Part shown: in pieces, positions 2,282 through 16,946 of the stretch
Layout of the letters: each line of letters opens with the position of its first letter
How positions within the stretch are numbered: position 1 is the first letter of the stretch
Assembly (NCBI RefSeq): GCF_003933745.1
Contig: NZ_RSEB01000002.1
Location: 558,001 to 622,000 of the forward strand
From: Glycomyces terrestris
GTDB lineage: Bacteria > Actinomycetota > Actinomycetes > Mycobacteriales > Micromonosporaceae
Length of the DNA: 64,000 bases
Reading direction: 5' to 3'
The notes under the pieces: generated by a model
What the model was told of the DNA's origin: nothing
The model's database searches: none
The model's input: only the letters and a program-made list of their open reading frames with translations
Translations under genes and position numbers: made by a program

Positions 2282-3142
2282 TCAGGGCTTGACGGCGATC
2301 GCGGCCATCTGGGTCCGCTCGTACGGCTCCAGGTCCGCGAACTCGGGAACGGCGCGCCCGGGGTCCTCCGGGTACCACCGCGAGACGTACTCCAGGCCCG
2401 GGGCGACCAGCGGCATCCCCAGGAAGTGGCGTTCGAGGCGCTCGACGGGGCGGCACCAGCCGTTCCCGAGCGTCTCCAGGCACGCGCGCGAGAGCGCGTG
2501 CTGGGCCGGGTCGCCGGTGTCGGGCCAGGCGGTGATGAACAGGTGCGAGCCGGACGCGAGGGGCTCCATGAGCGCCGCGATGATGTCGTCGGGCCGCTCA
2601 TCCTCGGCGATCTGCATGATCATGCCGATGAGCATGAGGCCCACCGGGCGGTCGAAGTCGAGCGCGCCGCGCACCTCCGGGTTCGCGAGCACCCCCTCGG
2701 GGTCGCGCAGGTCGGCGGTGACCACGGTGGTGGTGCGGTCGTCGGCGAGCAGGGCGCGGCCGTGGGAGAGCACCATCGGGTCGTTGTCGACGTAGACGAC
2801 GTGGGTCTCCGGGTTGATCTCCTGCGCGGCCTCGTGCGTGTTCTGCTTCGTGGGCAGGCCGCAGCCGATGTCGAGGAGCTGGTCGATCCCGGCCGCGCGC
2901 ACCATGTACCGGACGCCGCGCACGAGGGCGGTCCGGTTGAGCAGGGCGCACTCGCGGGCCTGGGGGATGTGCCGCATGAAGACGTCGGCGGCTTCGCGGT
3001 CGGCCTTGAAGTTGTCCCTGCCGCCGAGGATGGCGTCGTAGACCCTGGCGGTCGAGGGCACCTCGGGGTCGATCCCCGGCGGCGGCCATTCGGGGGCTGC
3101 TTCGTTCACGGCAATCCAATCGGCGCTGAATGGGCAGTTCAC
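2282..3142 (-). CDS. DUF574 family SAM-dependent methyltransferase
   Basis: 286 residues, normal length for the actinobacterial S-adenosylmethionine methyltransferase family DUF574 (PF04672). Seen in order: the N-terminal signature PSTARVYDAILGGRDNF (about residues 30-46), a Rossmann motif I LLDIGCGLPT near residue 90, an acidic strand end VVYVDND that would bind the ribose, and a ...TTTVVTADLRDP segment as motif III. The physiological substrate of this family is not known. These genes are very often beside XRE-type regulators in actinomycetes, and here a large XRE/NB-ARC protein is encoded immediately upstream on the same strand, 171 bases away. Co-expression is possible but the gap leaves room for a separate promoter. 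Confidence 0.85.
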   Translation of the reverse strand: MNCPFSADWIAVNEAAPEWPPPGIDPEVPSTARVYDAILGGRDNFKADREAADVFMRHIPQARECALLNRTALVRGVRYMVRAAGIDQLLDIGCGLPTKQNTHEAAQEINPETHVVYVDNDPMVLSHGRALLADDRTTTVVTADLRDPEGVLANPEVRGALDFDRPVGLMLIGMIMQIAEDERPDDIIAALMEPLASGSHLFITAWPDTGDPAQHALSRACLETLGNGWCRPVERLERHFLGMPLVAPGLEYVSRWYPEDPGRAVPEFADLEPYERTQMAAIAVKP

Positions 3143-3313
3143 GGGGGGATCAGGCGCGTCGCGGCGGGCGGGCGCGGCGCTGCCGGGGGAGGCCGGTCGA
3201 CATCCGGCCCAGGGGGTCCCGCCGCCGGTGCGGGACGTGGCTCCAGCCTACGCCATCGGCCCGGGGACCACGAGCTGCGCTCCCCAAGGGGACGTTGGCA
3301 TCCCGGGGCCCCG

Positions 3314-5647
3314 CTACGCCGTCAGGGTCCGGTGGCGCCCGACCGGCCGCGGGGACCGCTCCGGCCCCGCGCCGCCGTCGAGGCGCAGCCGCACCGCGTT
3401 CGCGAGCGGGTCCCCGAGGGCCGCCAGGACCGGCTCGGCGGTGCGCCACTCCAGCCGCGCCCCGGCCACGTCCCCGAGGTCGTACCGCAGGTTCCCGAGC
3501 CGGTACCGGAACCGGCCCTCGCTGAGCTGGTCGCCGATCTCCGCGGCGAGCGCCAGCGCGCTGCGGTAGGCGTCCGCGGCCCGGCCGTGGTCGCCCATCT
3601 CCAGGCAGGTCTCGGCGATCACCTGGAACGAGCGCATCTGCGCCCAGCGGTTCCCGATGAGCTCGGAGCGGTCGAGCGCGGCCCGGAACATCTTGAGCGC
3701 CATCTCGAACCGGCCCTCGCCGACGTACGCGCGGCCGATCGCGCACAGGCTCGACCCCTCGCCCCACGGGGTCCCGGCCCGCTCGGCGTTGTCGTAGGCG
3801 CGGCGGGCGTGCTCCAGGGCCTCGCCGACGCGGCCGCGCCGCACGCACGCGTGGCTGAGCCCGCACAGCGCCTGGACGAGCCCGGCCGCGTCGCGGACCC
3901 GCTCGTAGTGCGCGACGGCGTCCTCGAGGAGGACGATCGCCTCGGCGGGCCGGTGCAGCTCGGTGTACGCCTCCGCGAGGTTGACCGCGATGGCGGCCGC
4001 GACGGTCGCGTTCCCGGTGCGGCGGGCCGCGGCGAGCGCGGTCTCGCCGCTGGCCGCATAGGACTGCCAGTGCCGCATGAGGACGAAGTAGCCGCCCGCG
4101 GCGTAGGCGAGGCGCCAGGCGAAGTCGTGCTCGCCGGCCTCGGCCGCGAAGCGCACGAGGGCGACGATGTTGTGCCGTTCGCGCTCGTACCAGTGGAGGG
4201 CGTCCCGGGCGGTCGCGACGGGCGCGCCGGGGAGGGCGGGCACGTCGAGGCCGAACCAGTCGGGCATGAGGAGCCGGGTGGCGGCCGCGGCGGTCCCGGT
4301 GTACCACTCCAGGAGCCGCTTCGCGGCGTCGTCGGGCTCGTCCTCGGCGACCCACCTGGTGGTCGCGTAGAGCCGCAGCAGGTCGTGCATCTGGTAGCGG
4401 CTGGGCCCGGGAGACTCGACGAGGTTGGCGTCGACGAGGGTCTCGAGGCGGTCCTCGGCGTCGGCCTCGGGGATGCCGGCGAGGCGGGCGGCGACGAGGG
4501 GTCCGAAGTCGAGGCCGGGGAAGAGCGCTCCCAACCGCCGGAAGACGAGCCGCTCGTCGGCTTCGAGCGCCCGGTAGGACATGGAGAACGCCTCCATGAG
4601 CTGGAGGTCGCCGGCTTCGAGCTCGGCGAGGCGGCGGCGCTCGTCGCGCAGCCGCTCGGTCAGCGTCCCGACCTTCCACTGGGGACGACTGGCGAGCCGG
4701 GCCCCGGCGATTCGCAGCGCGAGCGGCAGGTGCCCGCACTGCTCGGCGAGCTCCGCGGCGGCCCGCGGCTCGGCCGCGACCCGGTCGGCCCCGGCGGTGC
4801 GCGCGAGGAGTTCGAGGGACTCCTCGGCGCTGAACGGCCCGAGCCGGAGCGTCTGCGCCCCTTCGAGTCCGATGAGGCTGTTGCGGCTGGTGGCGATGAC
4901 GACGCAGCCGGGAGTGCCGGGCAGGAGCGGGCGCAGGTCGGCCTCGCCGCGGGCGTTGTCGAACACCAGGAGACAGCGGCGGTGGCGCAGGAGCGAGCGG
5001 TAGGCGCAGGCGAGCTCGTCGAAGTCGGCGGGGACGCGCTCGTCGGGGTGTCCGAGGGTCCGCACGCACTGGCGCAGCACCGTCTCGGGGGCGAGGCGGC
5101 GCTCGTCGAAGCCGCGCATGTTGATGAACAGCTGGCCGTCGGGGAACTCGGGGGCGAGCCGCTGGGCGAGGTGGACGGCGAGCGTGGTCTTGCCGAGGCC
5201 GGGGCCGCCGGTGATGCCGATGACGATGGGGGAGCGGCGGTCCGGTTCGTCCATCGCGGCGAGGACGGTGTCGTGGAGGGTCGCGGTCTCGGCGGCGCGC
5301 CCGGCGAAGTCGGGCAGGTCGGCGGGCAGCTGGTACGGCAGCGGGGCGGCGGCCCGCGCGGCCGGGCGGGCCGGCGTCCCCTGGAGGTCGCGCTGGAGCC
5401 GGTGCCAGCGCCGGGCCCACACCTCGGGGTCGGCGCCGCACGCGGCCGCGTACGCCTGGACGACGTCCAGGGACGGCATCTCGCGGCCCGAGGCGGCCCT
5501 GGCGAGGGTGGACGCGGAGTAGTGCGCCTTGGCCGCCATGGCCCGGTAGGTGCTGCCGGGCGCGGCGGCGCGGAGCTCGCGCAGCCGCTGCGCGAACTGC
5601 TCCAGCGGACCCCGCCCGGGGTCGATCGGTTGTTCTGGTCTTCCCAT
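3314..5647 (-). CDS. XRE-HTH / NB-ARC / TPR transcriptional regulator
   Basis: 777 residues from the ATG at 5647 (MGRPEQPID...), which is preceded by a GAAGAGCGAGG element. Longer in-frame starts to 5920 are rejected because they would run into the divergent halogenase gene. Domains: an XRE-like helix-turn-helix at about residues 14-62 (TYRAMAAKAHYSASTLARAASG), an NB-ARC-type NTPase from about 105 to 400 with Walker A GGPGLGKT (147-154) and Walker B CLLVFDN (225-231), then Ala/Arg-rich alpha-helical TPR-type repeats to the C-terminus. This is the AfsR/SARP-like STAND architecture without the bacterial transcriptional activation domain. Such proteins act as ligand- or nucleotide-controlled regulators. 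It is divergent from the halogenase gene across a 244-base shared upstream region, so it may control that cluster (inference). Confidence 0.85.
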   Translation of the reverse strand: MGRPEQPIDPGRGPLEQFAQRLRELRAAAPGSTYRAMAAKAHYSASTLARAASGREMPSLDVVQAYAAACGADPEVWARRWHRLQRDLQGTPARPAARAAAPLPYQLPADLPDFAGRAAETATLHDTVLAAMDEPDRRSPIVIGITGGPGLGKTTLAVHLAQRLAPEFPDGQLFINMRGFDERRLAPETVLRQCVRTLGHPDERVPADFDELACAYRSLLRHRRCLLVFDNARGEADLRPLLPGTPGCVVIATSRNSLIGLEGAQTLRLGPFSAEESLELLARTAGADRVAAEPRAAAELAEQCGHLPLALRIAGARLASRPQWKVGTLTERLRDERRRLAELEAGDLQLMEAFSMSYRALEADERLVFRRLGALFPGLDFGPLVAARLAGIPEADAEDRLETLVDANLVESPGPSRYQMHDLLRLYATTRWVAEDEPDDAAKRLLEWYTGTAAAATRLLMPDWFGLDVPALPGAPVATARDALHWYERERHNIVALVRFAAEAGEHDFAWRLAYAAGGYFVLMRHWQSYAASGETALAAARRTGNATVAAAIAVNLAEAYTELHRPAEAIVLLEDAVAHYERVRDAAGLVQALCGLSHACVRRGRVGEALEHARRAYDNAERAGTPWGEGSSLCAIGRAYVGEGRFEMALKMFRAALDRSELIGNRWAQMRSFQVIAETCLEMGDHGRAADAYRSALALAAEIGDQLSEGRFRYRLGNLRYDLGDVAGARLEWRTAEPVLAALGDPLANAVRLRLDGGAGPERSPRPVGRHRTLTA

Positions 5648-5808
5648 GGCCTCGCTCTTCGCCTCGGAACCGTGCCGGTCGGGTCGCCCGGGTGAACAAC
5701 TCTCATCGTATCGAGGTGCGGCAATGTTCGCGGTGCGAACACGCGCGGGCGGGTTCCGCGCTCCAGTCACGTTGTCGCGCAACAACCGCACGGCTGGCCG
5801 ACAACCGT

Positions 5809-5824
5809 GACGCTCCGTAGCGTC
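5809..5824. promoter_or_regulatory. inverted repeat in halogenase upstream region
   Basis: GACGCT-CCGT-AGCGTC is a perfect 6-bp inverted repeat about 70 bases upstream of the halogenase start. Shortly before it are TTGTCGCGCAACAAC-like imperfect repeats. It may be an operator for the MarR or NB-ARC regulator. Confidence 0.35.
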
Positions 5825-5851
5825 GTTGCCGGAACCCCCTTCGAACACCAG

Positions 5852-5875
5852 GACGCATCCGTGCCGCGATGCGTC
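5852..5875. promoter_or_regulatory. 8-bp inverted repeat directly before halogenase RBS
   Basis: GACGCATC and GATGCGTC are perfect arms around CGTGCCGC. The right arm ends a few bases before the AGGAG of the halogenase gene, so the repeat can be either an operator at the transcript start or a 5'-UTR hairpin affecting translation. Confidence 0.4.
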
Positions 5876-5891
5876 GGACAGGAGCCAGCGC

Positions 5892-7496
5892 ATGGACACC
5901 TCTCCCACCGACCACCGCATCCGGAACGTGGTCGTCCTCGGCGGCGGGACCGCCGGGTGGATGACCGCCTCCTATGTGGCCAAGGCGTTCCAGGGCACGG
6001 TGAACGTGACCGTCCTGGAGGCGCCCGCGGTGCCGCGGATCGGCGTCGGCGAGGCCACGGTTCCCAACCTGCACAAGGCGTTCTTCTCGTTCCTCGGGAT
6101 CGAGGAGGACGAGTGGATGCGCGAGTGCAACGCGAGCTTCAAGATGGCCGTCAAGTTCGTCAACTGGCGCACCGAGGGCGAGGGCGAACCGGTCTCGCGC
6201 ACCCACCGCGGCCGGCCGGACCACTTCTACCACACGTTCGGCATCCTCCCCGCCCACGACCAGCTCCCGCTGTCGCACTACTGGTTCGCCGACCGGGCGG
6301 CCGGGCGTACCGACGAGCAGTTCGACTACGCCTGCTACCGGGAGCCGGCCGCGATGGACGCGAAGCTCGCGCCGCGCGACCGCGACGGGAACCGCTGGAC
6401 GAACTACGCGTGGCACTTCGACGCGCAGCTGGTCGCGGACTTCCTGTGCCGCTTCTCGGTCAAGTCCCTCGGCGTCACGCACGTCCAGGACCGCTTCACC
6501 GAGGCCGTGCGCGACGAGCGCGGCTTCGTGACCGCGCTCAAGACCGAGTCGGGACGGGTCCTCGAAGGCGACCTGTTCGTCGACTGCTCGGGCTTCCGGG
6601 GCCTGCTCATCAACCAGACGATGCGCGAGCCGTTCCTCGACATGAGCGACTACCTGCTGTGCGACAGCGCGGTCGCGGCGGCCGTGCCGCACGACGACGA
6701 GGCCGAGGGCATCGAGCCGTACACCTCCGCGATCGCCATGAAGTCCGGGTGGACGTGGAAGATCCCGATGCTCGGGCGCTTCGGCTCGGGGTACGTGTTC
6801 TCCAGCCGCTTCACCGACCGCGACACCGCGAGCGAGGACTTCTGCCGCCTGTGGGGCCTCGACCCCGACAACACGGCCCTGAACCAGATCTCGTTCCGGG
6901 TGGGCCGCAACCGGCGCGCGTGGGTGAAGAACGTCGTCTCGGTCGGGCTCGCCTCGTGCTTCCTCGAACCGCTGGAGTCGACCGGGATCTACTTCATCTA
7001 CGCGGCGATCTTCCAGCTGGTGAAGCACTTCCCGGACAAGCGGTTCGACCCGGTCCTCGCCAAGCGCTTCAACGCCGAGATCGAGACCATGTTCGACGAC
7101 TCCCGCGACTTCATCCAGGCGCACTTCAAGTTCGCGCCCCGCAACGACACGCCGTTCTGGCGGGAGAACAAGAATCTGGTCCTCGACGCGGGGATGCAGG
7201 AGAAGGTCGACATGTACCGGGCCGGGATGCCGGTGAACATGCCCGTCGCGGACGAGTCCACGTACTACGGGAACTTCGAGGCCGAGTTCCGCAACTACTG
7301 GACCAACGGCAGCTTCTACTGCATCTTCTCGGGGCTCGACCTCGTCCCCGACCACGTGTACCCGACGCAGGCGCTGCGCCCCGACGCCGCCGCGGGCGCG
7401 CGGGAGGTGTTCGCGGGCATCGCCGCCGAACGCGACCGGCTCCTGGAGACCCTCCCCACCGCGTACGAGTACCTGCGCGGCCTGCACGGGAAGTAG
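5892..7496 (+). CDS. flavin-dependent tryptophan halogenase, PrnA type
   Basis: 534 residues, the normal size of FADH2-dependent tryptophan halogenases. It shows the FAD-binding GGGTAG (17-22), the invariant WTWKIP motif (287-292), the catalytic lysine K84 (SFKMAVKF, equivalent to PrnA K79) and the E362-S363 pair in [13 protein letters not shown]. The C-terminal part ([26 protein letters not shown]) follows PrnA/RebH closely, so the expected reaction is oxidative chlorination of tryptophan, most likely at C7. Regioselectivity cannot be proved by eye. The ATG at 5892 follows an AGGAG. It is the first gene of the cluster; FADH2 would come from the flavin reductase gene four positions downstream. 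It is divergent from the NB-ARC regulator. Confidence 0.95.
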
Positions 7497-7553
7497 GACC
7501 CCGCCGGGCCCGGCGCCCCTCCCGCCGGGCCCGCTTCTGAAGGGCGACAACGC

Positions 7554-8621
7554 ATGCACCTCACCGACCCCCGCTTCGACGGGCCGCGCGCGGCCCGCCT
7601 CGACCCGCTCGGCGCCGACGCGCCGCTGCGCGCCGTCCCCGCGATGAACGCCGCCGCCGACGTCCCGGCCCTGACGGCCGCGCTGCGCCGGCTCACCCCC
7701 AGCCTCCCCGAGGTCGCGGCGTTCGACTTCTGCGAGTGCCTGGCCGCCATGCGCGACCTCGGCCTCCTGCTCGGCTCGGTCAAGCGCCACGGCGTGCAGC
7801 CGGTGCCGCTCGTGCCCGGCCTGGAGCCGGTCCTGGTCGAGCTCGGCCGGCGCACCGACATGATCCCGCGCGACACCGTCCACCACTACACCGAGTGGAA
7901 CCCCTTGGGGGAGCGGCAGCGCATGTACACCGGGGACCCCCAGGAGACCGTCCTCATGGGAGGGCCGCGCGCCTCGATCCCCGAACTCGGGCGGGCCCTG
8001 GAGCGCTGCGCCGACCTCGCGGACGCCGACCTCGCCGACCCGGACTTCGTGCCGCTCCTCGACGACCTCTCGGACGCCCTGGGCGCCTTCGAGACCGCGA
8101 TCGGCGACGTCGTCGCCCGCGTCTCCCCGGAGTTCTTCGCGCAGCAGATGCGGCCCTACTACGAGGAGGTCGCCGTCGCCGGCCGCGACTGGCTCGGCCC
8201 CGCGGCCGCGCACGTCCCGCTCTACCTCGCCGACCTCGCGCTGTGGGCCGCCGACGACAACGACCCCGCGTACGAGGCGTTCCTGGAGGAGTCGGCCGAG
8301 CACACGCTCCCGGCCTGGCGGGCCCTGGTGGCGCAGTGGCGCGACCGGCCCTCGATCGTGCGGCGCCTGCGCGAGGCCGCCGAGCCCGACCCCGAGCCGT
8401 GGGTCCGCCACCTCGCCGCCCTGCACCGGGTCATGCGCCGCCTCGTGGTCTTCCGCGGCCGCCACCTGGGCATCGCCCGCAAGGCGTACAAGGAGGAGGT
8501 GCGCCTGTACGAGCTCGGCTCCGGCGGCGGCTCCATCGGCCTGCTCCAGTCCATCCTGGACCTGACGCGCGACAACGCCGCCATCGCCAAGTCCCTCGTC
8601 CCCGCCGGGAGGCCCGCATGA
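7554..8621 (+). CDS. PrnB-like heme enzyme (aminopyrrolnitrin-type ring rearrangement)
   Basis: 355 residues, matching PrnB, the heme enzyme of the indoleamine/tryptophan dioxygenase superfamily that converts 7-chlorotryptophan to monodechloroaminopyrrolnitrin. Recognised PrnB-like stretches: AAMRDLGLLLGSVKRHG (about 64-80), VPGLEPVLVELGR, WNP..RMYTG (around 120), MRPYYEEVAVAGRDWLGP, and the C-terminal HLGIARKAY followed by ELGSGGGS. H304 in the HLxxAxxAY motif is the likely proximal heme ligand. It follows the halogenase by 57 bases and overlaps the next gene as ATGA, so this is one operon. Expected role: carboxylate loss and indole-to-phenylpyrrole rearrangement of the chlorotryptophan. The actual product could differ from that of pyrrolnitrin producers. 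Confidence 0.88.
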   Translation: MHLTDPRFDGPRAARLDPLGADAPLRAVPAMNAAADVPALTAALRRLTPSLPEVAAFDFCECLAAMRDLGLLLGSVKRHGVQPVPLVPGLEPVLVELGRRTDMIPRDTVHHYTEWNPLGERQRMYTGDPQETVLMGGPRASIPELGRALERCADLADADLADPDFVPLLDDLSDALGAFETAIGDVVARVSPEFFAQQMRPYYEEVAVAGRDWLGPAAAHVPLYLADLALWAADDNDPAYEAFLEESAEHTLPAWRALVAQWRDRPSIVRRLREAAEPDPEPWVRHLAALHRVMRRLVVFRGRHLGIARKAYKEEVRLYELGSGGGSIGLLQSILDLTRDNAAIAKSLVPAGRPA

Positions 8622-9853
8622 GGATCGCCATCGCCGGCGGCGGCATCGGCGGGCTCACCGCCGCCCTCGCGCTCCACGCCGCCGGGCACCGCGACGTGCA
8701 CGTCCTCGAGGCCGCCGCCGAGCTGCGGCCGCTCGGCGTGGGCCTGAACATCCTGCCCAGCGCCGTCCGCGAGCTCCACGCCCTCGGCGTCGCCGACGCC
8801 GTCGAGGGCCACGCCGTGACCACCGCCGAGCTCGCGTTCTACACGCGGCGAGGCGATCTCGTCTGGTCCGAGCCGCGCGGCCGCTTCGCCGGGCACCGCT
8901 ACCCGCAGTACTCGCTGCACCGGGGCCTGCTCCAGCAGGACCTCGCCGACGCCGTCGCCGCCCGGCTCGGCCACGGCGCGATCCAGACCGGCCGCCCCGT
9001 CCTCGGCTACACCGCCGCGGACGGCCGCGTCACCGTCCACACCGGATCGGGCGACTTCGAGGCCGACCTCCTCGTCGGCGCCGACGGCCTTCACTCGGCC
9101 GTCCGGGCCGCCATGCACCCCGGCGAGGGCGGGCCCGACGCGAACGGGATGTGGATGTGGCGCGGCACCACCCGCGCCGCCCCGTTCCTCACCGGCGCCT
9201 CCATGGCCGTGCTCGGCGACGACCGCGCCAAGTTCGTCATGTACCCGATCCGGCCCGCCGACGAGACCGGGAACGCCCTGATCAACTGGGTCACCGGCCG
9301 GCCCGCCGACGGGCCCTCGCCCGCGCTCTCCCTCGCCGACCGCAAGCGCGAGGTCCTCGCCCAGTTCGGCGACTGGAAGGTCCCCTGGACCGACCTGCCC
9401 GCGCTCGTCGCCGGGGCCGCGCAGATCCACGAGTACCCGATGGTCGACCGCGCGCCCCTGCCGACCTGGACCGACGGGCCCGTCACGCTCCTGGGCGACG
9501 CCGCCCACCCGATGTACCCCGTCGGCTCCAACGGCGCCACCCAGGCCATCATCGACGGCCGCGCCCTCGCCTGGCACCTCCACAAGGGACCAGACGTCGC
9601 GACCGCGCTGCGCCGCTACGAGCACGAGCGCCTCCCGGCCACCCGCGGCGTCCAGGCCGCCAACCGCCGCATGGGCCCCGAGCGCGTCATCGACCTCGCC
9701 TGGCAGCGCGCCCCGCAGGGCTTCGACCGCATCGAGGACGTCTTCACCCCCGCAGAGCTCCAGCAAATCTCCGACGACTACGCCTCCACCGCCGGGTTCA
9801 CCGTCGAGGAGCTGGCCGCCGAGTCCCCCTACGGGACCGGAGGACCGCGATGA
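8618..9853 (+). CDS. PhzS-like FAD-dependent monooxygenase
   Basis: 411 residues. N-terminal GxGxxG of the FAD fold is GGGIGGL (about 7-13). LRPLGVGLNILPSAV, PQYSLHRGLLQ and the GDAAHPMYPVGSNGATQAI motif (GD motif near residue 292) closely follow PhzS, the NADH/FAD aromatic hydroxylase that makes pyocyanin by oxidative decarboxylation. A phenazine pathway is not present, so here it probably hydroxylates the aryl-pyrrole or a downstream intermediate (inference). The ATG overlaps the stop of the PrnB-like gene, and the next gene overlaps its stop, indicating translational coupling. Confidence 0.88.
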   Translation: MRIAIAGGGIGGLTAALALHAAGHRDVHVLEAAAELRPLGVGLNILPSAVRELHALGVADAVEGHAVTTAELAFYTRRGDLVWSEPRGRFAGHRYPQYSLHRGLLQQDLADAVAARLGHGAIQTGRPVLGYTAADGRVTVHTGSGDFEADLLVGADGLHSAVRAAMHPGEGGPDANGMWMWRGTTRAAPFLTGASMAVLGDDRAKFVMYPIRPADETGNALINWVTGRPADGPSPALSLADRKREVLAQFGDWKVPWTDLPALVAGAAQIHEYPMVDRAPLPTWTDGPVTLLGDAAHPMYPVGSNGATQAIIDGRALAWHLHKGPDVATALRRYEHERLPATRGVQAANRRMGPERVIDLAWQRAPQGFDRIEDVFTPAELQQISDDYASTAGFTVEELAAESPYGTGGPR

Positions 9854-10440
9854 GCACCCGGCCCGCCGCCCCGCACGCCTGCGACGGCGCCTGCGCCGAC
9901 ACCGGCGACCTGCGGTCCCTCATGGCCGCGTTCCCCACCGGCGTCGCCGTCGTCGCCGCCGCCGACCCCGCGGGCGAGCCGATCGGCATGACCTGCTCGT
10001 CCCTGTGCTCGGTCGCCCTCGACCCGCCCACGCTCCTGGTCTGCCTGCGCGAGCACGGCCCCACCGCCGCGGCCGTCCTCGCCTCCGGCTCGTTCACCGT
10101 CAACCTCCTCGACGACCGCGCCCGCGACGTCGCCGAGCTCTTCGCCTCCGGCGCCGCCGACCGCTTCGCGCACGTCAGGTGGCGCCCCGGCGCCGCCGGC
10201 CCCCACCTCGTCGCCGACGCCCACTCCACCGCGGACTGCCGCGTCGACCGCCGCTACACCGTCGGCGACCACGTCGTCGTCCTCGGCGAGGTCGAGCGCG
10301 TCACCGTCCGCCGCGAGCCGCGCCCCCTCCTGTACGGCATGCGGCGCTTCAAGACCTGGGAAGGAGCGGGGCCTCCGGCAGACCCCGCGGGCCGGCTCGC
10401 CGCCCGAACCCACGCAACAACCGACAACACGGAGAACTGA
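9850..10440 (+). CDS. flavin reductase (HpaC/PrnF-like)
   Basis: 196 residues with the flavin reductase-like FMN-binding fold: FPTGVAVVAA near residue 28, PIGMTCSSLCSVALDPPTLLVCL (about 44-66, with Thr and Ser contacting flavin phosphate), FTVNLLDD, and the late HVVVLGEVERV strand. The family reduces FMN or FAD with NAD(P)H and hands the free reduced flavin to a partner. In this operon the obvious client is the tryptophan halogenase, which has no NAD(P)H site. The N-terminus is Cys- and His-rich (PHACDGACADTGD), which is not general for the family. It overlaps both neighbours by one to four bases. Confidence 0.9.
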   Translation: MSTRPAAPHACDGACADTGDLRSLMAAFPTGVAVVAAADPAGEPIGMTCSSLCSVALDPPTLLVCLREHGPTAAAVLASGSFTVNLLDDRARDVAELFASGAADRFAHVRWRPGAAGPHLVADAHSTADCRVDRRYTVGDHVVVLGEVERVTVRREPRPLLYGMRRFKTWEGAGPPADPAGRLAARTHATTDNTEN

Positions 10441-10805
10441 TGAACATCGCCACCATCGTCCTTGCCCTGCTGCTGGCGGTCGCCTTCGCGGCGTCGGGGG
10501 TCGTCAAGATCCTCACGCTGCCCCCGGCCAAGGCCGACGCCGACCGCTTCGGCATGTCCTACAACGCCTACAAGGGGATCGGCGTGCTCGAATTCCTCGG
10601 CGGCGCCGGACTCGCGATCGGCGCGCTCGTGACCGACTTCTGGTGGGTCGGCGTGGCCGCCGCCGTCGGCCTCGTCGCCCTCACCATCGGCGCGCTCGCG
10701 ACCCACCTGCGCGTCAAGGACCCCGCCGGGAAGGCCGCCGGGGCCCCGCTGTTCGGCGTGCTCGTCGCCGTCGCGGGCGTCCTCATCTACCTGAACGCCG
10801 CGTAG
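10440..10805 (+). CDS. DoxX-like small membrane protein
   Basis: 121 residues with four hydrophobic segments: the first starts at residue 3, and ...FAASGVVKIL with a conserved Lys is typical of DoxX/DoxD-like proteins. GVLEFLGGAGLAIG forms the second segment. DoxX-like proteins are found with redox and quinone systems but their function in such clusters is not known. The ATG at 10440 overlaps the last base of the flavin reductase stop, so it is translated from the same message. A GC-rich stem-loop follows. Confidence 0.75.
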   Translation: MNIATIVLALLLAVAFAASGVVKILTLPPAKADADRFGMSYNAYKGIGVLEFLGGAGLAIGALVTDFWWVGVAAAVGLVALTIGALATHLRVKDPAGKAAGAPLFGVLVAVAGVLIYLNAA

Positions 10806-10813
10806 ACCGCCCA

Positions 10814-10836
10814 GGGGCCCGGCCCGCCCGGGCCCC
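10814..10836 (+). terminator. GC stem-loop inside the biosynthetic cluster
   Basis: Perfect 9-bp arms GGGGCCCGG and CCGGGCCCC around CCCGC, 8 bases after the DoxX-like stop and about 70 bases before the ketosynthase gene. It may terminate or attenuate the first half of the cluster, with a second promoter before the ketosynthase. Confidence 0.5.
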
Positions 10837-10907
10837 GTCCGGCTGCGCCTCCCGCAGCCCGCCCACCGCCCAGTCCGCTCCCTCCGCACCGAATCGAGGC
10901 CAGCCGC

Positions 10908-12593
10908 ATGGAGTACCGCCGCGAACCGATCGCCGTCGTCGGCATGGGGTGCCGCTTCCCCGGCGCCGACGGCACCGACGCCCTCTGGGAGCTGCTGCTC
11001 GCCGGAGGCGACGCCACCGGCCCCACCCCGAAGGACCGCTACGACGCCGAGGCCATGTACTCGCCCGAGCCCGCGCTCGGCAAGGTCATCGCCAAGCGCT
11101 CCGGATACCTCGAGCGCGCCTTCGACTTCGACGCCCCCTTCTTCGGCATGACCCCCGCCCAGGCGTCCTACCTGGATCCGCAGCAGCGGCTGCTCCTCAC
11201 CGCCGCCTACGAGGCGTTCGCCGACGCCGGACTCACCCGCGAGGCCGTCGCCGGGACCCGCACCGGCGTGTACGTCGGCAACATGAACCTCGACTTCTGG
11301 GACGTCATCGCCCGCCGCGGCCCCGAGGCGATCACCCCCTCCGTCATCTACAACCTCCGCAGCGTCCTCTCAGGACGCCTCGCGTACGAGTTCGACCTGC
11401 GCGGGCCCAGCATCACCGTCGACACCGCCTGCTCCTCCTCCCTGACCGCCCTTCACCTCGCGTGCCTGTCGCTGCGCGCCGGGGAGACCGAGGCCGCGCT
11501 CGTCGCCGGCGTCAACCTCAAGCTCAACGCCGAGGAGGACCTGCTCCTGTCGCAGGCGCGCATGTTCGCCCGCGACGGCCGCTGCAAGTTCGGCGACGCC
11601 CGCGCCGACGGCTTCGCGCCCTCCGACGGCGCCGCCGCCATCGTCCTCAAACCCCTCGCCAGGGCCCTCGCCGACGGCGACCCCGTGCACGCCCTCGTCC
11701 TCGGCGGCAACCTCGGCAACGACGGCCGCGCCTCCGGGTCCCTCCTCGCGCCCTCCGCCGACGCGCACGCCGAGATGCTCCGCCTCGCCTACGAGGACGC
11801 CGGGATCGACGCCTGCGACGTCGACTTCATCGAGGCCCACGGCACCGGCACCCCCCTGATCGACCCGATCGAGTTCGCCGCGATCGGCGAGGTCCTCGGC
11901 AAGGACCGCCCCGCCGACCGGCCCGTCCTCGTCGGCTCCGTCAAGACCAACATCGGCCACACCGAAGGGGCCGCCGGCGTCGCCGCCGTCATCAAGTCAG
12001 CGCTCGCCCTCGCCCACCGCCGCCTCCCCGCGAGCCTCCACTACGAGACCCCGAACCCCAAGATCGACTGGGCCGCACTGCCCGTCGCCGTCCCGACCTC
12101 CACCGTGGACCTCGACGGCCGGGGCCGGCCGCTCCTCGCCGGCGTCAGCGGCCAGGGCATCTCGGCCGCGAACGCGCACATCGTCCTCGGCGAGGCCCCG
12201 CGCCGCGAGGCCGCCCCCGACGACGGCCGCGCCTACCCGTTCGTGCTCTCCGCCGCCACCGGACCGGCCCTCCTCGAACGCGCCCGCGACTGCGCCGCAT
12301 GGCTCTCCGAGTCCACCCACGCCCTGCGCGACGTCTGCTACAGCGCCGCCGTCCGCACCACCCACCACGCGCACCGCGCCGCCGTCACCGCCGAGACCCG
12401 CGCCGGCCTCACCGCCGCGCTCCTGGCCATCGCCGACGGCGACGCCCCCGCGCCCGAAGGCGTCGGCGCCGCGTTCTGCGCGGGCGAGGAGGTCGACTGG
12501 ACCGGCGTCTTCGACGCCACCGCGACCTTCGTGCGCCTCCCGCACTACCCGTGGCAGTACGCCGCCTACCCGATCCCGGAGGAGGACCGATGA
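10908..12593 (+). CDS. stand-alone type I ketosynthase without AT domain
   Basis: 561 residues. A complete modular-type ketosynthase spans about 1-425: IAVVGMGCRFPGA at the start, DPQQRLLL, active Cys C175 in DTACSSSL, H311 in EAHGTGT and H351 in NIGHTEGAAG, so it should be catalytically competent for decarboxylative Claisen condensation. After it comes the usual KS-to-AT linker (PFVLSAATGPALLERAR...), and then directly the post-AT linker (EEVDWTGVF...LPHYPWQ). The roughly 300-residue acyltransferase domain that normally sits between them is absent. Extender loading must come from elsewhere, for example fatty-acid synthase malonyl transferase. The stop overlaps the KAS III start (ATGA). Confidence 0.92.
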   Translation: MEYRREPIAVVGMGCRFPGADGTDALWELLLAGGDATGPTPKDRYDAEAMYSPEPALGKVIAKRSGYLERAFDFDAPFFGMTPAQASYLDPQQRLLLTAAYEAFADAGLTREAVAGTRTGVYVGNMNLDFWDVIARRGPEAITPSVIYNLRSVLSGRLAYEFDLRGPSITVDTACSSSLTALHLACLSLRAGETEAALVAGVNLKLNAEEDLLLSQARMFARDGRCKFGDARADGFAPSDGAAAIVLKPLARALADGDPVHALVLGGNLGNDGRASGSLLAPSADAHAEMLRLAYEDAGIDACDVDFIEAHGTGTPLIDPIEFAAIGEVLGKDRPADRPVLVGSVKTNIGHTEGAAGVAAVIKSALALAHRRLPASLHYETPNPKIDWAALPVAVPTSTVDLDGRGRPLLAGVSGQGISAANAHIVLGEAPRREAAPDDGRAYPFVLSAATGPALLERARDCAAWLSESTHALRDVCYSAAVRTTHHAHRAAVTAETRAGLTAALLAIADGDAPAPEGVGAAFCAGEEVDWTGVFDATATFVRLPHYPWQYAAYPIPEEDR

Positions 12594-13612
12594 CCGCCGT
12601 CGTCGCCGGGCTCGGCAGCGCCCTGCCCGCCCGGGAGGTCGGCAACGACGAGCTCGCCGCCCGCCTCGGCGTCACCCCCGACTGGATCGAGCGGCGCACC
12701 GGCATCCGCGCCCGCCGCTTCGCCGACGCCGCCACCCCGACCTCCGCGCTCGCCGCCGAGGCCGCCCGCGCGGCCCTCGCCGACGCCGCCACCGATCCCT
12801 CCGAAGTGGACGCGTTCCTGGTCGCGACCTACACGCCCGACCACCAGATCCCGGCCACCGCGCCGCTCGCGGCCGCCCGGCTCGGCATCGGCGCCCCCGC
12901 CTTCGACGTCAACGCCGCCTGCTCGGGCTTCGTCTACGCGCTCGCCACCGCCGCCGGGCTCATCGCCACCGGCGCCCGCCGCGTCCTGGTCGCCGGGGCC
13001 GAGACCGCCTCCACCCTCACCGACCCCGCCGACCGCACCGTCCACCCGCTGTTCGGCGACGGCGCCGGCGCGGTGCTCCTGCGCGCGGGCGAGCCCGGCG
13101 AGGAGGGCGCGCTCCTCGCGGTCGACCTCGGCAGCGACGGCGCCGGCGCGGCGAGCCTCATCGCCCCCGCCTCCGCCTCCCGCGCCCGCCTCGGCAACGG
13201 CACCGAACGGCCCCAACCGGACCCGGCCGCCTACTACATGGCCATGGACGGCCGCGAGGTCTTCCTCCAGGCCGTGGCGCACATGAGCGCGTCCTCCCGC
13301 GCCGTCCTCGCCCGCGCCGAGGTCAAACCCTCCGAAGTGGACCGCGTCTGCGGGCACCAGGCCAACGTCCGCATCCTCCGCGCCGTCGCCGACGAGCTCG
13401 GCGCCGACCACGACCGGCTCCTGGTCGACCTCGACCGCGTCGGCAACACCGGGGCCGCGTCCATCCCGCTCGCCCTCGACCGGGCCCGCCGCGAGGGCCG
13501 CCTCGCGCCCGGCCACACCGTCCTCCTGACCGCCTTCGGCGGCGGGTACACCTGGGGCTCGGCGCTGCTGCGCTGGCCCGCCACCGCACAGCACCCAAGG
13601 AGCGCACCATGA
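12590..13612 (+). CDS. beta-ketoacyl-ACP synthase III-like enzyme
   Basis: 340 residues. The thiolase-fold triad is intact: C111 in NAACSGFVYAL, H256 in GHQANVRI and N286 in VGNTGAASIP, so condensation or acyl transfer chemistry is expected. DWIERRTGIRARR (about 31-43) is the conserved FabH substrate-entrance region. KAS III enzymes prime chains with acyl-CoA, and several in natural-product clusters instead transfer acyl groups to O or N nucleophiles; either fits here. It is embedded between ketosynthase and carrier-protein genes with 4-base overlaps at both ends, so the three proteins are made in concert. Cluster context argues against this being the housekeeping FabH. Confidence 0.9.
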   Translation: MTAVVAGLGSALPAREVGNDELAARLGVTPDWIERRTGIRARRFADAATPTSALAAEAARAALADAATDPSEVDAFLVATYTPDHQIPATAPLAAARLGIGAPAFDVNAACSGFVYALATAAGLIATGARRVLVAGAETASTLTDPADRTVHPLFGDGAGAVLLRAGEPGEEGALLAVDLGSDGAGAASLIAPASASRARLGNGTERPQPDPAAYYMAMDGREVFLQAVAHMSASSRAVLARAEVKPSEVDRVCGHQANVRILRAVADELGADHDRLLVDLDRVGNTGAASIPLALDRARREGRLAPGHTVLLTAFGGGYTWGSALLRWPATAQHPRSAP

Positions 13613-13863
13613 CCACCGCCGCCCGCGTCGCCGCCGTCGTCGCCAAGTGGTGCCAGGCCGACCCCGGGGACCTCACCCCCGAGACCCGCCTGGACGACCT
13701 CGACCTCGACTCCCTCAGCCGCCTGGAGACCGCCCTCGGCCTCCAGCGCGAGTTCCGGGTCGCGATCGACGACACCCGCATGAACGACGCCGAGACCATC
13801 GCCGACGTGATCGCCGTCGTCGAGTCCAGCCCCGCCCTGGACGGCGACCCGGACCGGCTCTGA
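13609..13863 (+). CDS. acyl carrier protein
   Basis: 84 residues, typical ACP length and acidity. The 4'-phosphopantetheine attachment site is S35 in LDDLDLDSLSRLE. Helix 1 (RVAAVVAKWCQ) and the later AETIADVIAVVE helix fit the four-helix ACP fold. It overlaps the KAS III gene by 4 bases and presumably carries the acyl chain handled by the KAS III and ketosynthase of this cluster. No phosphopantetheinyl transferase gene is in the window, so activation would rely on an enzyme encoded elsewhere. Confidence 0.93.
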   Translation: MTTAARVAAVVAKWCQADPGDLTPETRLDDLDLDSLSRLETALGLQREFRVAIDDTRMNDAETIADVIAVVESSPALDGDPDRL

Positions 13864-13865
13864 CC

Positions 13866-15131
13866 ATGAGCGCCACCGCCGTCCTCCTCCTGGTCCTCCT
13901 GCTCGTCGTCCTCGCCTGCCGGGCCGCGCACGCGGTCTGCCGGCGCCTCGGCCAGCCGCCCGTGCTCGGGGAGATCCTCGTCGGCATCCTCCTGGGGCCC
14001 AGCCTGTTCGGGGCGCTCGCGCCCGGCACGCACGCGTCCCTGTTCGGGCCCGAGCTCCTCACCGCCGTCGACGGGCTCAGCCAGATCGGCCTGGTGCTCT
14101 TCATGTTCACCGTCGGCCTGGAGTTCCCGATCGCGCGCCTGCGCAGCACCGCCCGGGTCGGCCTCGCGGTCTCGGGCGCCGGCATGGTCGTCCCGCTCGC
14201 GCTCGGCTTCGCGTTCGCGCTGTGGGCCGGGCCGCGCCTCGGGCTGTTCCCCGCCGGCGTCGACCCCGCGATCGGGGCCCTGTTCATCGGCCTGCTCCTG
14301 TCGATCACCGCGTTCCCGGTGATGGCGCGCATGATCGCCGACCACGGCCACGTGCGCACCCGCTTCGGCTCGGTCTCGCTCACCGCGGGCGCCCTCGACG
14401 ACGCCGCCGCGTGGGTCCTCCTCGCGGCCGTCCTCGCCGCGTTCGGCACCGGCGGCGACGCCTCCGCGCTCATCGCGCTCGCCGGACTCGCCGTCCTCGC
14501 CGGAGCGCTCGTCCTGGTGCACCGCGCGGCCCGGCACTGGTTCGCGCGCCGCGACCCCGGCCGGGACGCCGTCCTCGTCGCCGCCGCGCTCGCGCTGCTC
14601 GCCGCCGCCGGGTTCACCGAGCTCATCGGCGTCCACGCCGTGTTCGGCGCGTTCGCCCTCGGCGCGGCCGTCCCGCGCGGCGCCGCCGCCGACGTCCTCG
14701 CCGAGCGCATCCGGCCCCTGACCGCGGTCCTGTTCCTGCCGCTGTTCTTCGTCCACTCGGGCATGAACACCGACCTCGGCCTCATGACCGGCGCGGGCCT
14801 GGCCGCCGGGGCCGCGGCGCTCGTGGTCCTCGCGTTCATCGGGAAGCTCGGGGCGTGCACCGCCGCCGCCCGCGCGGCGGGGGAGTCGTGGGCCGACGCG
14901 GCCCGCATCGGCTGCTACATGAACGCGCGCGGGCTCATGCAGCTCGTGGCCCTCGACATCGGCCTGCGCGCGGGCCTGATCGACCAGGCCGCGTACGCGA
15001 TGATCGTCGTCGTCGCGGTCGCCACCACGTTCTTCACCGCGCCCGGCCTCGCCCTCGTCGACCGCCTCGCCCGCCGCCGCGCCGGGAGGGAGCCCGAGCG
15101 CCGGCCCGAGACCGCCGGGGCCGCGCCCTAG
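13866..15131 (+). CDS. CPA2-type cation/proton antiporter
   Basis: 421 residues with about twelve membrane segments. QPPVLGEILVGILLGPSLFG near residues 35-53 is the conserved Kef/NhaP-type (monovalent cation:proton antiporter 2) entry motif, and GALDDAAAWVLLA carries the conserved Asp pair in the ion path. Cytoplasmic tail is short, with no RCK/TrkA nucleotide-binding domain. It starts 2 bases after the ACP stop, so it belongs to the same transcript. In natural-product clusters such antiporters are seen beside polyketide genes and may support self-resistance or ion balance; direct export of the product is less likely (inference). Confidence 0.88.
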   Translation: MSATAVLLLVLLLVVLACRAAHAVCRRLGQPPVLGEILVGILLGPSLFGALAPGTHASLFGPELLTAVDGLSQIGLVLFMFTVGLEFPIARLRSTARVGLAVSGAGMVVPLALGFAFALWAGPRLGLFPAGVDPAIGALFIGLLLSITAFPVMARMIADHGHVRTRFGSVSLTAGALDDAAAWVLLAAVLAAFGTGGDASALIALAGLAVLAGALVLVHRAARHWFARRDPGRDAVLVAAALALLAAAGFTELIGVHAVFGAFALGAAVPRGAAADVLAERIRPLTAVLFLPLFFVHSGMNTDLGLMTGAGLAAGAAALVVLAFIGKLGACTAAARAAGESWADAARIGCYMNARGLMQLVALDIGLRAGLIDQAAYAMIVVVAVATTFFTAPGLALVDRLARRRAGREPERRPETAGAAP

Positions 15132-15181
15132 CGTGTCCCAGCACACCGGCACCGGCCCTGGCCTCGCAGTATGCTTGCGGG

Positions 15182-15664
15182 ATGGAGGAACACGCGGGCG
15201 AGGCCATCGGCACGGGCACCGCGCTGGTGCGCACCGCCTTCCTCGTCGACACCGTCTACGCCGACGCCGCCCGCGAGTTCGACCTCACCGCCGCGCAGTC
15301 CCAGCTGCTGTGCATCGTCCTCAACCGCCCCTTCGGCATGTTCGAGCTCGCGAAGACCCTCGGGCTCGCCAAGTCGAGCGTCACCGGGCTCGTCGACCGC
15401 TGCGAGAAGCGCGACCTGGTGCGCCGCGAACCCGACCCGGGCGACGGCCGCGCCTCCCGCGTGGCCCTGACCGCCAAGGGCGCCCAGCTCGCCGAGGAGC
15501 TCCACGAGGTGATCCTGCGCCGCACCGCCGAGCTGACCGGCGGGCTCACCGCCGACGAGCGCGCCGCCCTCACCGCCCTCCTCGCGAAGGTCGTCACCGA
15601 CAACCAGGCGCCGGTCGTCATCACCGAGGGCGAGTGCCCCGCGGCCGACCCGGCCTGCGGCTGA
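15182..15664 (+). CDS. MarR family transcriptional regulator
   Basis: 160 residues with a winged helix: QSQLLCIVLNRPFGMFELAKTLGLAKSSVTGLVDRCEKRDLVRREPDPGDGR lies around residues 39-90, including the recognition helix SSVTGLVDRC and the wing DPGDGRA. MarR proteins bind palindromes as dimers and are released by phenolic or aromatic ligands, a natural fit for a cluster that should make an aryl-pyrrole. It is the last gene of the cluster, 50 bases after the antiporter, and may have its own start: TATGCT at 15170-15175 sits 6 bases before the ATG, compatible with a leaderless transcript. Likely target: inverted repeats before the halogenase (inference). Confidence 0.9.
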   Translation: MEEHAGEAIGTGTALVRTAFLVDTVYADAAREFDLTAAQSQLLCIVLNRPFGMFELAKTLGLAKSSVTGLVDRCEKRDLVRREPDPGDGRASRVALTAKGAQLAEELHEVILRRTAELTGGLTADERAALTALLAKVVTDNQAPVVITEGECPAADPACG

Positions 15665-15848: not shown

Positions 15849-16946
15849 TTACGAGGCGCCGTACATCTCGGCGAACCTGCCGTTCATGAGGTCGCGGCCC
15901 TTCCACAGCACCACCTGGTCCACCGGCATCAGGGCCGGGCCGTCCTCGCCGGGGACCTGCCCGACGCCGTGCTCGGGGCCCAGCGGCAGCAGCATCATCC
16001 GCATCGGGTTCGGCCGGTACTCCTCGACCGGCTCCTCGCCGTTGACCTGCGCGATGATGTTGGCGGCCACCACCTCCGCGTGCCGCGAGGCGGCCCCGGC
16101 GCGCTTCTCCTCGGCCACGTCGGTGAGGTCGCCCACCGCGTACACGTGCGCGTGTCCGTCCACATTGAGCTTCGGGGTGACCGGGATCTGGCCGCGCTCG
16201 TTCAGGGGCGCGAGACCGCCTTCGAGGTAGTCCGAGTTCGTCGCGGCCCCGTAGGCGCGGAACCAGATGTCGGCCTCGATCTTCTCGCCGCCCGCGCTCG
16301 CCCTGACCTCCCCGGCCCGGCCGGGCTCCACGTCCGGCTCCGCGTCGAGCGCCGCGCCCAGGCGCACCTCGATGCCGAGCTCGGCCAGCTGGCGCTCCAG
16401 CTCGGCCCGCAGCTCCGGGGTGTAGCCGGGGACGAGCTCGGCGCCGGGGTCGACCACGGTGATCCGCTTCCCGGGCCACACCGCGCGGATCTCCCCGGCC
16501 AGCTCCAGGCCCACCGGCCCGGCCCCGGCGATGAGCACCCGCTCGGCCCCGGCCAGCTCGGCGTGGGTCTCCTTGAAGTGGGCCAGTGCCTCCGCGGTCG
16601 AGTCGGTGCGGGTCTTCGCCGGGTACGGGTAGGCCGACCCGGTCGCCAGCACGATGTAGTCGGCCTCGACGCGCGCCCCGGAGGCGAGGGTGACGCCGCG
16701 GGCGTCGACCGCCGCCGCGTACTCGCGCACATGGCTGCCGCGCTTGAGGACGCCGCTGTAGGGGAAGAAGATCTGCTCCGCCCACTCCTCGGGCCGGGTG
16801 AGCGCGCGCAGCGCGCCGGCGGCGTGCACGAAGGCGTCCTTGGGTTCGATGAGCACCACGTCGGCGTGCTCGTCCAGCGCCTTGGCGACGGCCGCGCCGC
16901 CGTAGCCCCCGCCGACGACCGCCACGGTTCGACCTTGCTGAGTCAT
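15849..16946 (-). CDS. NAD(P)H/FAD oxidoreductase, NDH-2/AIF-like
   Basis: 365 residues. Two dinucleotide folds: FAD-binding VAVVGGGYGGAAVAKAL at the N-terminus (about 8-24) and NAD(P)H-binding VLIAGAGPVGLELAGEI around residue 140-156, followed by the second FAD motif HVYAVGDLTDV near residue 275. This is the AMID/type II NADH dehydrogenase-like class; without a C-terminal membrane-anchor helix it is probably cytoplasmic or peripherally bound. The ATG at 16946 is preceded by GGAAGAGGCGG. Its promoter region contains a large inverted repeat shared with the divergent aminotransferase gene, so expression is probably controlled by an unlinked regulator. Confidence 0.85.
   Translation of the reverse strand: MTQQGRTVAVVGGGYGGAAVAKALDEHADVVLIEPKDAFVHAAGALRALTRPEEWAEQIFFPYSGVLKRGSHVREYAAAVDARGVTLASGARVEADYIVLATGSAYPYPAKTRTDSTAEALAHFKETHAELAGAERVLIAGAGPVGLELAGEIRAVWPGKRITVVDPGAELVPGYTPELRAELERQLAELGIEVRLGAALDAEPDVEPGRAGEVRASAGGEKIEADIWFRAYGAATNSDYLEGGLAPLNERGQIPVTPKLNVDGHAHVYAVGDLTDVAEEKRAGAASRHAEVVAANIIAQVNGEEPVEEYRPNPMRMMLLPLGPEHGVGQVPGEDGPALMPVDQVVLWKGRDLMNGRFAEMYGAS

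Follow-up and report, generated by a model that had tools for sequence, protein, structure and literature searches.

A putative chlorinating member of a PrnB-monooxygenase pathway family in Glycomyces terrestris

The stretch analyzed here, hereafter called the window, comprises 64,000 nucleotides of the genome of the soil bacterium Glycomyces terrestris (contig NZ_RSEB01000002.1, positions 558,001 to 622,000). It carries a gene island in which a tryptophan halogenase gene is followed by genes for a heme enzyme of the PrnB family, known from pyrrolnitrin (prn) biosynthesis, and for an FAD monooxygenase. We give about an even chance to the reading that this island encodes a chlorinating version of a PrnB-monooxygenase pathway that is widespread and found mostly in actinobacteria, and that it acts by the steps set out below. 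Its likely product would be a chloro-(2-aminophenyl)pyrrole that bears a hydroxyl group and a short beta-ketoacyl chain.

Gene calling by codon GC periodicity, with a script that leaves the gene starts partly uncertain, yielded ten open genes on one strand at 5892-15664, all with coding-type periodicity. Pfam and NCBIfam searches gave their order as tryptophan halogenase, PrnB family, PhzS-like FAD monooxygenase, flavin reductase, DoxX-like protein, ketosynthase (KS), beta-ketoacyl-acyl carrier protein synthase III (KAS III), acyl carrier protein (ACP), CPA2 antiporter and MarR regulator. Both the gene list and the ten-gene, same-strand cluster described in an earlier note on this DNA were borne out. 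The features of the locus are as follows.

3299..15131, no strand: inserted island of about 11.8 kb, with borders taken from comparison with a Glycomyces site lacking the cluster (L151)
3314..5539, minus strand: divergent regulator with NB-ARC (51.6 bits) and TPR_12 (60.8 bits) Pfam domains and an HTH-like N-terminus recognized by eye
5892..7496, plus strand: FADH2-dependent tryptophan halogenase, Trp-6-halogenase-like, group A2, 534 aa (PF04820, 543 bits)
7554..8621, plus strand: PrnB-family heme enzyme, 355 aa (PF08933, 133.9 bits against a gathering score of 27)
8618..9853, plus strand: PhzS-like FAD monooxygenase, overlapping the PrnB gene by 4 bp (NF005720/PRK07538, 509.8 bits against a cut-off of 400)
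9850..10440, plus strand: flavin reductase, probable FADH2 supplier of the halogenase (PF01613, 138 bits)
10440..10805, plus strand: DoxX-like small membrane protein (PF13564, 65 bits)
10908..12593, plus strand: stand-alone KS of polyketide synthase (PKS) type without acyltransferase (AT) domain (PF00109, 267 bits; PF02801, 124 bits)
12590..13612, plus strand: KAS III, FabH type (TIGR00747, 294 bits against a cut-off of 292.1)
13609..13863, plus strand: ACP with DSL serine (PF00550, 43 bits, and alignment)
13866..15131, plus strand: CPA2-type cation:proton antiporter, last island gene, likely for export or tolerance (PF00999, 189 bits)
15182..15664, plus strand: MarR regulator, ancestral neighbour and not island DNA (PF12802)

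From the halogenase to the antiporter, intergenic gaps range from -4 to +102 bp and five of the eight junctions overlap, which suggests that these genes form one operon. A scan for promoter and terminator consensus sequences found nothing exceeding chance.

The halogenase had been taken for a tryptophan 7-halogenase of the PrnA type, but its nearest solved relatives and two of its three diagnostic motifs are of the 6-halogenase type. In phmmer searches against solved structures it scored 850 bits with 6ul2, 839 with Thal, 819 with RebH and 707 with PrnA, and its C-terminal 394 residues gave the same ranking. Identity to PrnA of two prn clusters was 58-59%. We take 6ul2 to be the Trp 6-halogenase BorH; the structure shows the Trp4 motif tabulated for BorH. 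At residues altered in the RebH-like Thal variant 6ib5, the island protein has G and S as does Thal. The neighbour sets of thienodolin and borregomycin also differ from that of the island. According to Table 1 of PMC8269204 (cited from excerpts, like the other papers below), 6-halogenases carry ATVPNL (one ATIPNL), HPFGL and ...TNGSYY, and 7-halogenases carry ATIP.L, HLFG./HSFGL and ...N.NYY. By that table, Trp1 (ATVPNL) and Trp4 (...YWTNGSFY, with two F/Y differences) of the island halogenase are of 6-type, and it shares these motifs and its top scores with the group A2 6-halogenases Thal, BorH and FmoD. Chlorination is therefore quite probably directed to C6 of tryptophan. A chlorine at this position (indole numbering) would end up on C4' of the aminophenyl ring, unlike the C3' of pyrrolnitrin.

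By motifs and phylogeny, the island PrnB is a genuine family member that stands apart from the PrnB of prn clusters. It passed the PF08933 gathering score and matched the PrnB structure 2v7i over residues 14-339 (E=4.7e-63). His304, aligned to H313 of 2v7i (presumably the heme ligand), is invariant in our 12-row alignment. Ser323, also invariant in the 12 rows, aligns to Ser319 of FbPrnB with an inferred numbering offset, and Tyr112 corresponds to Tyr104 of FbPrnB, where PfPrnB has Val117. The heme ligand, the substrate-carboxylate Ser loop and an HxxxWNP segment are common to the island enzyme and pyrrolnitrin PrnB; in the excerpts of PMC11791213, FbPrnB Ser319 holds the substrate carboxylate. 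In a maximum-likelihood tree of 45 rows, in which some branches are long and the deep order is unsure, the prn-cluster sequences L033 and L163, FbPrnB (not known to be from a prn cluster) and the ungrouped L029 lay across a 99/93 branch from the window and 40 others. The earlier note had said that its view would fall if the protein lay outside the PrnB clade and had lost a heme ligand; it does lie outside, with the ligand kept.

The island is not a prn cluster, judging from its gene content. It shares with the prn loci of Azotobacter (L033) and Burkholderia pyrrocinia (L163) a tryptophan halogenase gene directly upstream of the PrnB-family gene, and with the former, by its annotation, a flavin reductase and a cation:proton antiporter. 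However, the island has in addition a monooxygenase, a KS, a KAS III, an ACP and a DoxX protein. The marks of a prn cluster, namely a PrnA-type 7-halogenase, a prn-type PrnB, PrnC and PrnD, were all lacking by sequence: a search of the G. terrestris genome gave no PrnC match at E<=1e-3 and, for PrnD, only one Rieske-like match of 60 residues (E=1.7e-4). The lack of PrnC and PrnD agrees with what the earlier note had reported. Its framing of prnA and prnB as orphan genes of the pyrrolnitrin pathway is unsupported, given a halogenase nearer to 6ul2 and Thal and a PrnB across the 99/93 branch. A prn cluster that has lost PrnC and PrnD was likewise rejected, as both proteins, PrnB and halogenase, lie closer to other lineages.

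The most constant partner of these PrnB proteins is the monooxygenase. Its best solved relatives are 2rgj/3c96 (E=2e-87), which we take to be the phenazine monooxygenase PhzS; the pathway of PhzS differs. Relatives were sought by a PrnB-alignment scan of one genome per species, and the 80 named loci are the best of 125 found with the 12-row alignment. Before counting, the duplicates L018, L021 and L022 were dropped; L030 had no tblastn match. A PhzS-like gene directly followed the PrnB gene on the same strand in 80 of 95 loci. When loci set apart by divergence or prn context (L026-L029, L032, L033 and L163) were excluded and a wider gap was allowed, the count was 81 of 88, a figure that leans to loci with the pair because seven of the 12 query rows carry it (window, L017-L021 and L031). 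In a less biased order sample, the monooxygenase was next door in eight of 16 PrnB-bearing genomes. Only three of the 88 loci belong to Pseudomonadota (L098, L108 and L109).

The genes around this core vary. Streptomyces locus L060 has an AraC regulator, an HpaB-like monooxygenase and an MFS transporter ahead of PrnB and the flavin monooxygenase, and 43 loci match HpaB and MFS but lack a KS. A methyltransferase-like match occurs in six loci (by Pfam in L023 and L111): in Streptomyces L091 and L111 it is a separate gene after the monooxygenase, and in the Micromonospora sp. CP22 genus the monooxygenase itself includes a fused methyltransferase-like part. Such arrangements are expected if the monooxygenase leaves a hydroxyl. 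In L020, L021/L112, L023 and L025, the PhzS-like protein of 711-716 aa bears a leucine-carboxyl-methyltransferase-like domain (Pfam for L023, tblastn for the others), and this fused enzyme right after PrnB is possibly a two-gene pathway.

Three relatives hold the same core enzymes as the island in the order DoxX-PrnB-monooxygenase-KS-KAS III-ACP: Thermocrispum municipale L096, Saccharopolyspora spinosa L113 and the Streptomyces NBC_01717 plasmid L031. Their KS proteins are 57-59% identical to that of the island, with the catalytic Cys and a carrier protein. In all three the DoxX gene precedes PrnB, whereas in the island it lies behind. In L031 (18100-19122), the KAS III gene between the KS and ACP genes is frameshifted, by error or decay. 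The Glycomyces island equals this set plus a halogenase, a flavin reductase, an antiporter and a regulator; no flavin reductase homologue was found among the called genes of the three relatives.

Among the 95 loci, a halogenase match within the stretch was confined to the Glycomyces trio described below and the two prn clusters. We also searched 12 genomes or records for matches to the island halogenase. Each of the three Glycomyces genomes had one match, G111 had one at 44% identity, and G197 had one frame matched in two pieces (37% and 49%). No match was found in the genomes of Thermocrispum, S. spinosa, Microtetraspora, S. parvulus, S. wedmorensis and G069, or on the NBC_01717 plasmid (the plasmid was searched, the chromosome was not). 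A halogenase encoded elsewhere in the relatives' genomes was rejected by this search. Since halogen-free versions with KS, KAS III and ACP exist, Glycomyces seems to have added the halogenase and flavin reductase genes to an existing pathway.

The acyl part of the island appears catalytically complete. The KS has its catalytic Cys175 and both His motifs (Cys-His-His) intact, with a C-terminal remnant of a KS-AT/post-AT linker; Pfam found no AT domain in it, in agreement with an AT-less PKS ketosynthase. No AT, ketoreductase (KR) or thioesterase (TE) family was detected by Pfam among the ten genes. KAS III passed the TIGR00747 cut-off with its Cys-His-Asn triad intact (CSGF, GHQAN and GNTG). 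The idea that it is the only FabH of the host was rejected: the genome contains two other full-length FabH-like matches at 47% and 39%, the latter with a single TAA in the aligned stretch.

A related KS in which Gln replaces the catalytic Cys (KSQ-like) lies next to PrnB in 13 loci (L036, L039, L041, L043, L045, L052, L055, L062, L065, L067, L081, L083 and L093). In the KS tree, one side of a 98/96 branch holds these Gln sequences. Eight of nine Cys-KS loci, and none of the 13 Gln-KS loci, were found to have a carrier protein. The model used for this search was derived from the carriers of six Cys-KS loci, which match by construction, and could overlook a divergent carrier at a Gln-KS locus; some of the stretches were shorter than 20 kb.

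Two Cys-KS loci show a different acyl supply. In Microtetraspora L037 and in L019, genes for an adenylation (A) domain, a peptidyl carrier protein (PCP) and a PhyH protein (L037:7159-9928; L019:5485-8268) precede PrnB, the monooxygenase and the KS, with a P450 gene as well in L019. The A-PCP-PhyH genes stand in place of KAS III and ACP, for which no match was found in these two stretches; the KS belongs to the same lineage as the island KS. The metal motif of the PhyH proteins reads HQA, presumably as in SyrB2-type halogenases, and these genes may represent a second halogenation route for the same pathway. Two related KS genes were found in stretches without PrnB: the L161 protein has a carrier domain of its own, and the next gene is annotated as an adenylation domain; L162 has a like-sized gene after the KS, which suggests a similar use. 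That the acyl supply varies (KAS III-ACP or A-PCP) while the KS stays with PrnB and the monooxygenase argues for a KS that would transfer a carrier-bound acyl group to the PrnB/monooxygenase product.

Tryptophan genes accompany the Gln-KS branch. Both trpC and trpD lie in the stretch of eight of the 13 Gln-KS relatives, which points to tryptophan as the pathway's probable substrate. Additional trpC copies, some interrupted by a single stop in the aligned region, are present elsewhere in all three genomes tested. At L055 (14590-20208) and similar loci, Gln-KS clusters have trpC, trpD and trpE (by Pfam) beside PrnB, together with a trpG-like gene (recognized by eye), and the genome has a further trpC copy elsewhere.

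On the observed gene set, intact catalytic residues, island borders, relatives and substitution rates, we infer all catalytic steps, the regiochemistry, the joining step and the product. Supplied with FADH2 by the flavin reductase, the halogenase would chlorinate free L-tryptophan, probably at C6. PrnB would then rearrange and decarboxylate 6-chlorotryptophan to 3-(2-amino-4-chlorophenyl)pyrrole ([M+H]+ 193.0527), so that the island, if this holds, works like the first two prn steps. The PhzS-like enzyme would hydroxylate this compound (209.0476). KAS III would condense an acyl-CoA with malonyl-ACP to a beta-ketoacyl-ACP, with FabD presumably transferring the malonyl group, as no AT is encoded. 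The KS would take the acyl group on Cys175 and hand it to the aminophenylpyrrole, giving an acylated form of 293.0687 if the group is acetoacetyl, or 275.0582 if the product is cyclised; a pyrroloquinoline may then form by ring closure. The antiporter would export the product or protect against it. The outline given by the earlier note (chlorination, PrnB rearrangement, hydroxylation, acylation) fits the anatomy of the island and stays our best guess, while its halogenase type, its boundary and its view of the origin had to be revised. Marinoquinolines and other 3-(2-aminophenyl)pyrrole alkaloids would, we assume, share the aminophenylpyrrole intermediate and its acylation or ring closure; marinoquinolines are known from Bacteroidota and are unchlorinated. 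They are mentioned in the excerpts of PMC11943599. A mass of 193.0529 was measured for a putative pyrrolnitrin intermediate (excerpts of PMC11112847), from which the island isomer would be distinguishable by retention and NMR. No described product of a PrnB-monooxygenase-KS cluster was found in the open-access literature, a scope that leaves out MIBiG and most subscription papers.

The closest named relatives, G. artemisiae (L034, PrnB 95% identical) and G. amatae (L105, 87%), have identical genes in the same order. Among 22 Glycomyces genomes sampled, 12 had a close orthologue (at least 73%, the window's own genome counted) of the flanking gene at 15849-16925. The cluster is present in two of the other 11 loci, L150 and L160, which are the contigs of L034 and L105 and with the window make up the three species compared here; the remaining nine (L151-L159, looked at for this site only) have no cluster at the site. 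In L151, homology to the window ends at 3298 and restarts at 15116, with 16 bp in between, which places the probable island at about 3.3-15.13 kb. The divergent regulator 3314-5539 is present with the cluster in L150 and L160; it is absent from the nine cluster-free stretches, as is the antiporter 13866-15131. Conversely, the MarR gene adjoins the 15849 gene in all nine cluster-free loci and is thus ancestral to the site and outside the cluster, although it may still regulate it. The earlier delimitation was therefore right for the genes up to the antiporter, wrongly took in MarR as a cluster gene, and omitted the divergent regulator. In L151-L155 the orthologue of the 2282-3061 methyltransferase comes next after MarR, whereas in L156-L159 one to three other, unrelated genes lie between the two, so the insertion spot is variable. 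The GC content of the island is 74.8%, against 72.9% in the rest of the window, and no transposase or integrase was found among the flanking genes examined. Another Glycomyces without the island at this site (G252, L026) has a distant PrnB homologue (42%) with no adjoining monooxygenase.

Selection on the genes was estimated as the ratio of nonsynonymous to synonymous substitution rates (dN/dS, pairwise NG86) among the window, L150 and L160. All frames are open in the three species and dN/dS is below 1 for all genes measured. Values were 0.13-0.30 for PrnB, 0.16-0.31 for the halogenase, 0.15-0.26 for the KS, 0.18-0.39 for the divergent regulator, 0.21-0.42 for DoxX, 0.25-0.34 for the antiporter, 0.26-0.46 for the monooxygenase and 0.29-0.47 for KAS III. 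The highest in the island were those of ACP (0.48-0.72) and flavin reductase (0.57-0.62), and the highest overall was that of the ancestral MarR gene (0.60-0.89).

Several other explanations were weighed against this pathway. A serious rival, which we nevertheless consider somewhat unlikely, is ordinary chain building, in which the KS adds a malonyl unit to acetoacetyl-ACP and the aniline nitrogen releases the polyketide non-enzymatically. It agrees with the complete Cys-His-His and Cys-His-Asn sets, the ACP serine and the PKS-type KS with its linkers, but not with the lack of AT, KR and TE families among the ten genes, nor with a KS of the same lineage beside an A domain and PCP, with no KAS III or ACP match in the stretch, in L019 and L037. 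It is unlikely that the acyl part instead modifies a hydroxy- or oxo-tryptophan: the heme ligand, Ser loop and HxxxWNP segment are those of pyrrolnitrin PrnB, and a hydroxylase is already supplied by the next gene, even though the window PrnB lies apart from prn-cluster PrnB, indole hydroxylation is predicted for another PrnB homologue (excerpts of PMC13036774) and the PrnB superfamily includes oxygenases (excerpts of PMC12921851). A true 7-chlorotryptophan route, with pyrrolnitrin-type PrnA and PrnB followed by hydroxylation and acylation, seems still less probable. Both families are indeed present, the PrnA score is substantial at 707 bits, and the HTF motif differs from the HPF of 6-halogenases; against this route stand the higher scores with 6ul2 and Thal than with RebH and PrnA, the tabulated 6-halogenase motifs ATVPNL and TNGS, the separate position of PrnB, and a genome without PrnC or a full PrnD. 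Finally, a decaying or silent remnant without product, to which one could relate the dN/dS of ACP, flavin reductase and KAS III above those of KS and PrnB and the frameshifted KAS III of L031, is very improbable given frames open in three species, dN/dS below 1 and intact catalytic motifs.

The chlorinating PrnB-monooxygenase pathway thus remains the reading that we favour, and a number of points weigh against it. At EPLEST, the halogenase has the same T as the RebH-like variant 6ib5, although the 6-halogenase 6ul2 shares this T. Its Trp2 motif, HTFGI, is neither the tabulated HPFGL of 6-halogenases, Thal, BorH and FmoD among them, nor the HL/HS of the 7-type. ACP and flavin reductase are the least conserved of the island genes by dN/dS. 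The 20-kb stretch of L017 has a Cys-KS but yielded no carrier protein, and the carrier search itself favours Cys-KS loci because the model was built from their carriers. The joining step and its nucleophile are hypothetical. In addition, even PrnB of the pyrrolnitrin type was not reconstituted in vitro (excerpts of PMC11791213), so its function is unreadable from residues alone.

A broader and bolder picture can be drawn, which we put forward tentatively. The PrnB and PhzS-like core would define a large and so far undescribed actinobacterial family of alkaloid pathways that makes a hydroxylated aminophenylpyrrole from tryptophan, to which the KS would couple carrier-bound acyl groups, with the Gln-KS loci as a carrier-free offshoot. 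Glycomyces would have captured a 6-halogenase and a flavin reductase, giving rise to a new chlorinated acylated class. The boldest part of this picture is that the monooxygenase would serve as redox partner of PrnB. In the excerpts of PMC11791213, PrnB is active in cells and inactive when purified, and missing cellular components are suspected, partner proteins among them; prnA-D are enough in E. coli, which speaks against an essential role of the monooxygenase for that PrnB. A PrnB group with a near-constant flavin-monooxygenase neighbour nonetheless offers a natural pair for the puzzle of the inactive purified enzyme described there. The island also allows a natural chlorinated version to be compared with natural ones lacking chlorine, outside the pyrrolnitrin pathway, and the KS lineage is one in which the catalytic Cys and carrier proteins seem to be gained or lost together. 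As pyrrolnitrin and its relatives are antifungal leads, this new PrnB branch merits mining.

Elsewhere in the window, two GDSL-lipase-like secreted paralogues lie in tandem (36983-37801 and 37946-38758), and one gene (55745-57409) joins a GCE_fung (glucuronoyl-esterase-like) domain to a CBM2 cellulose-binding domain.

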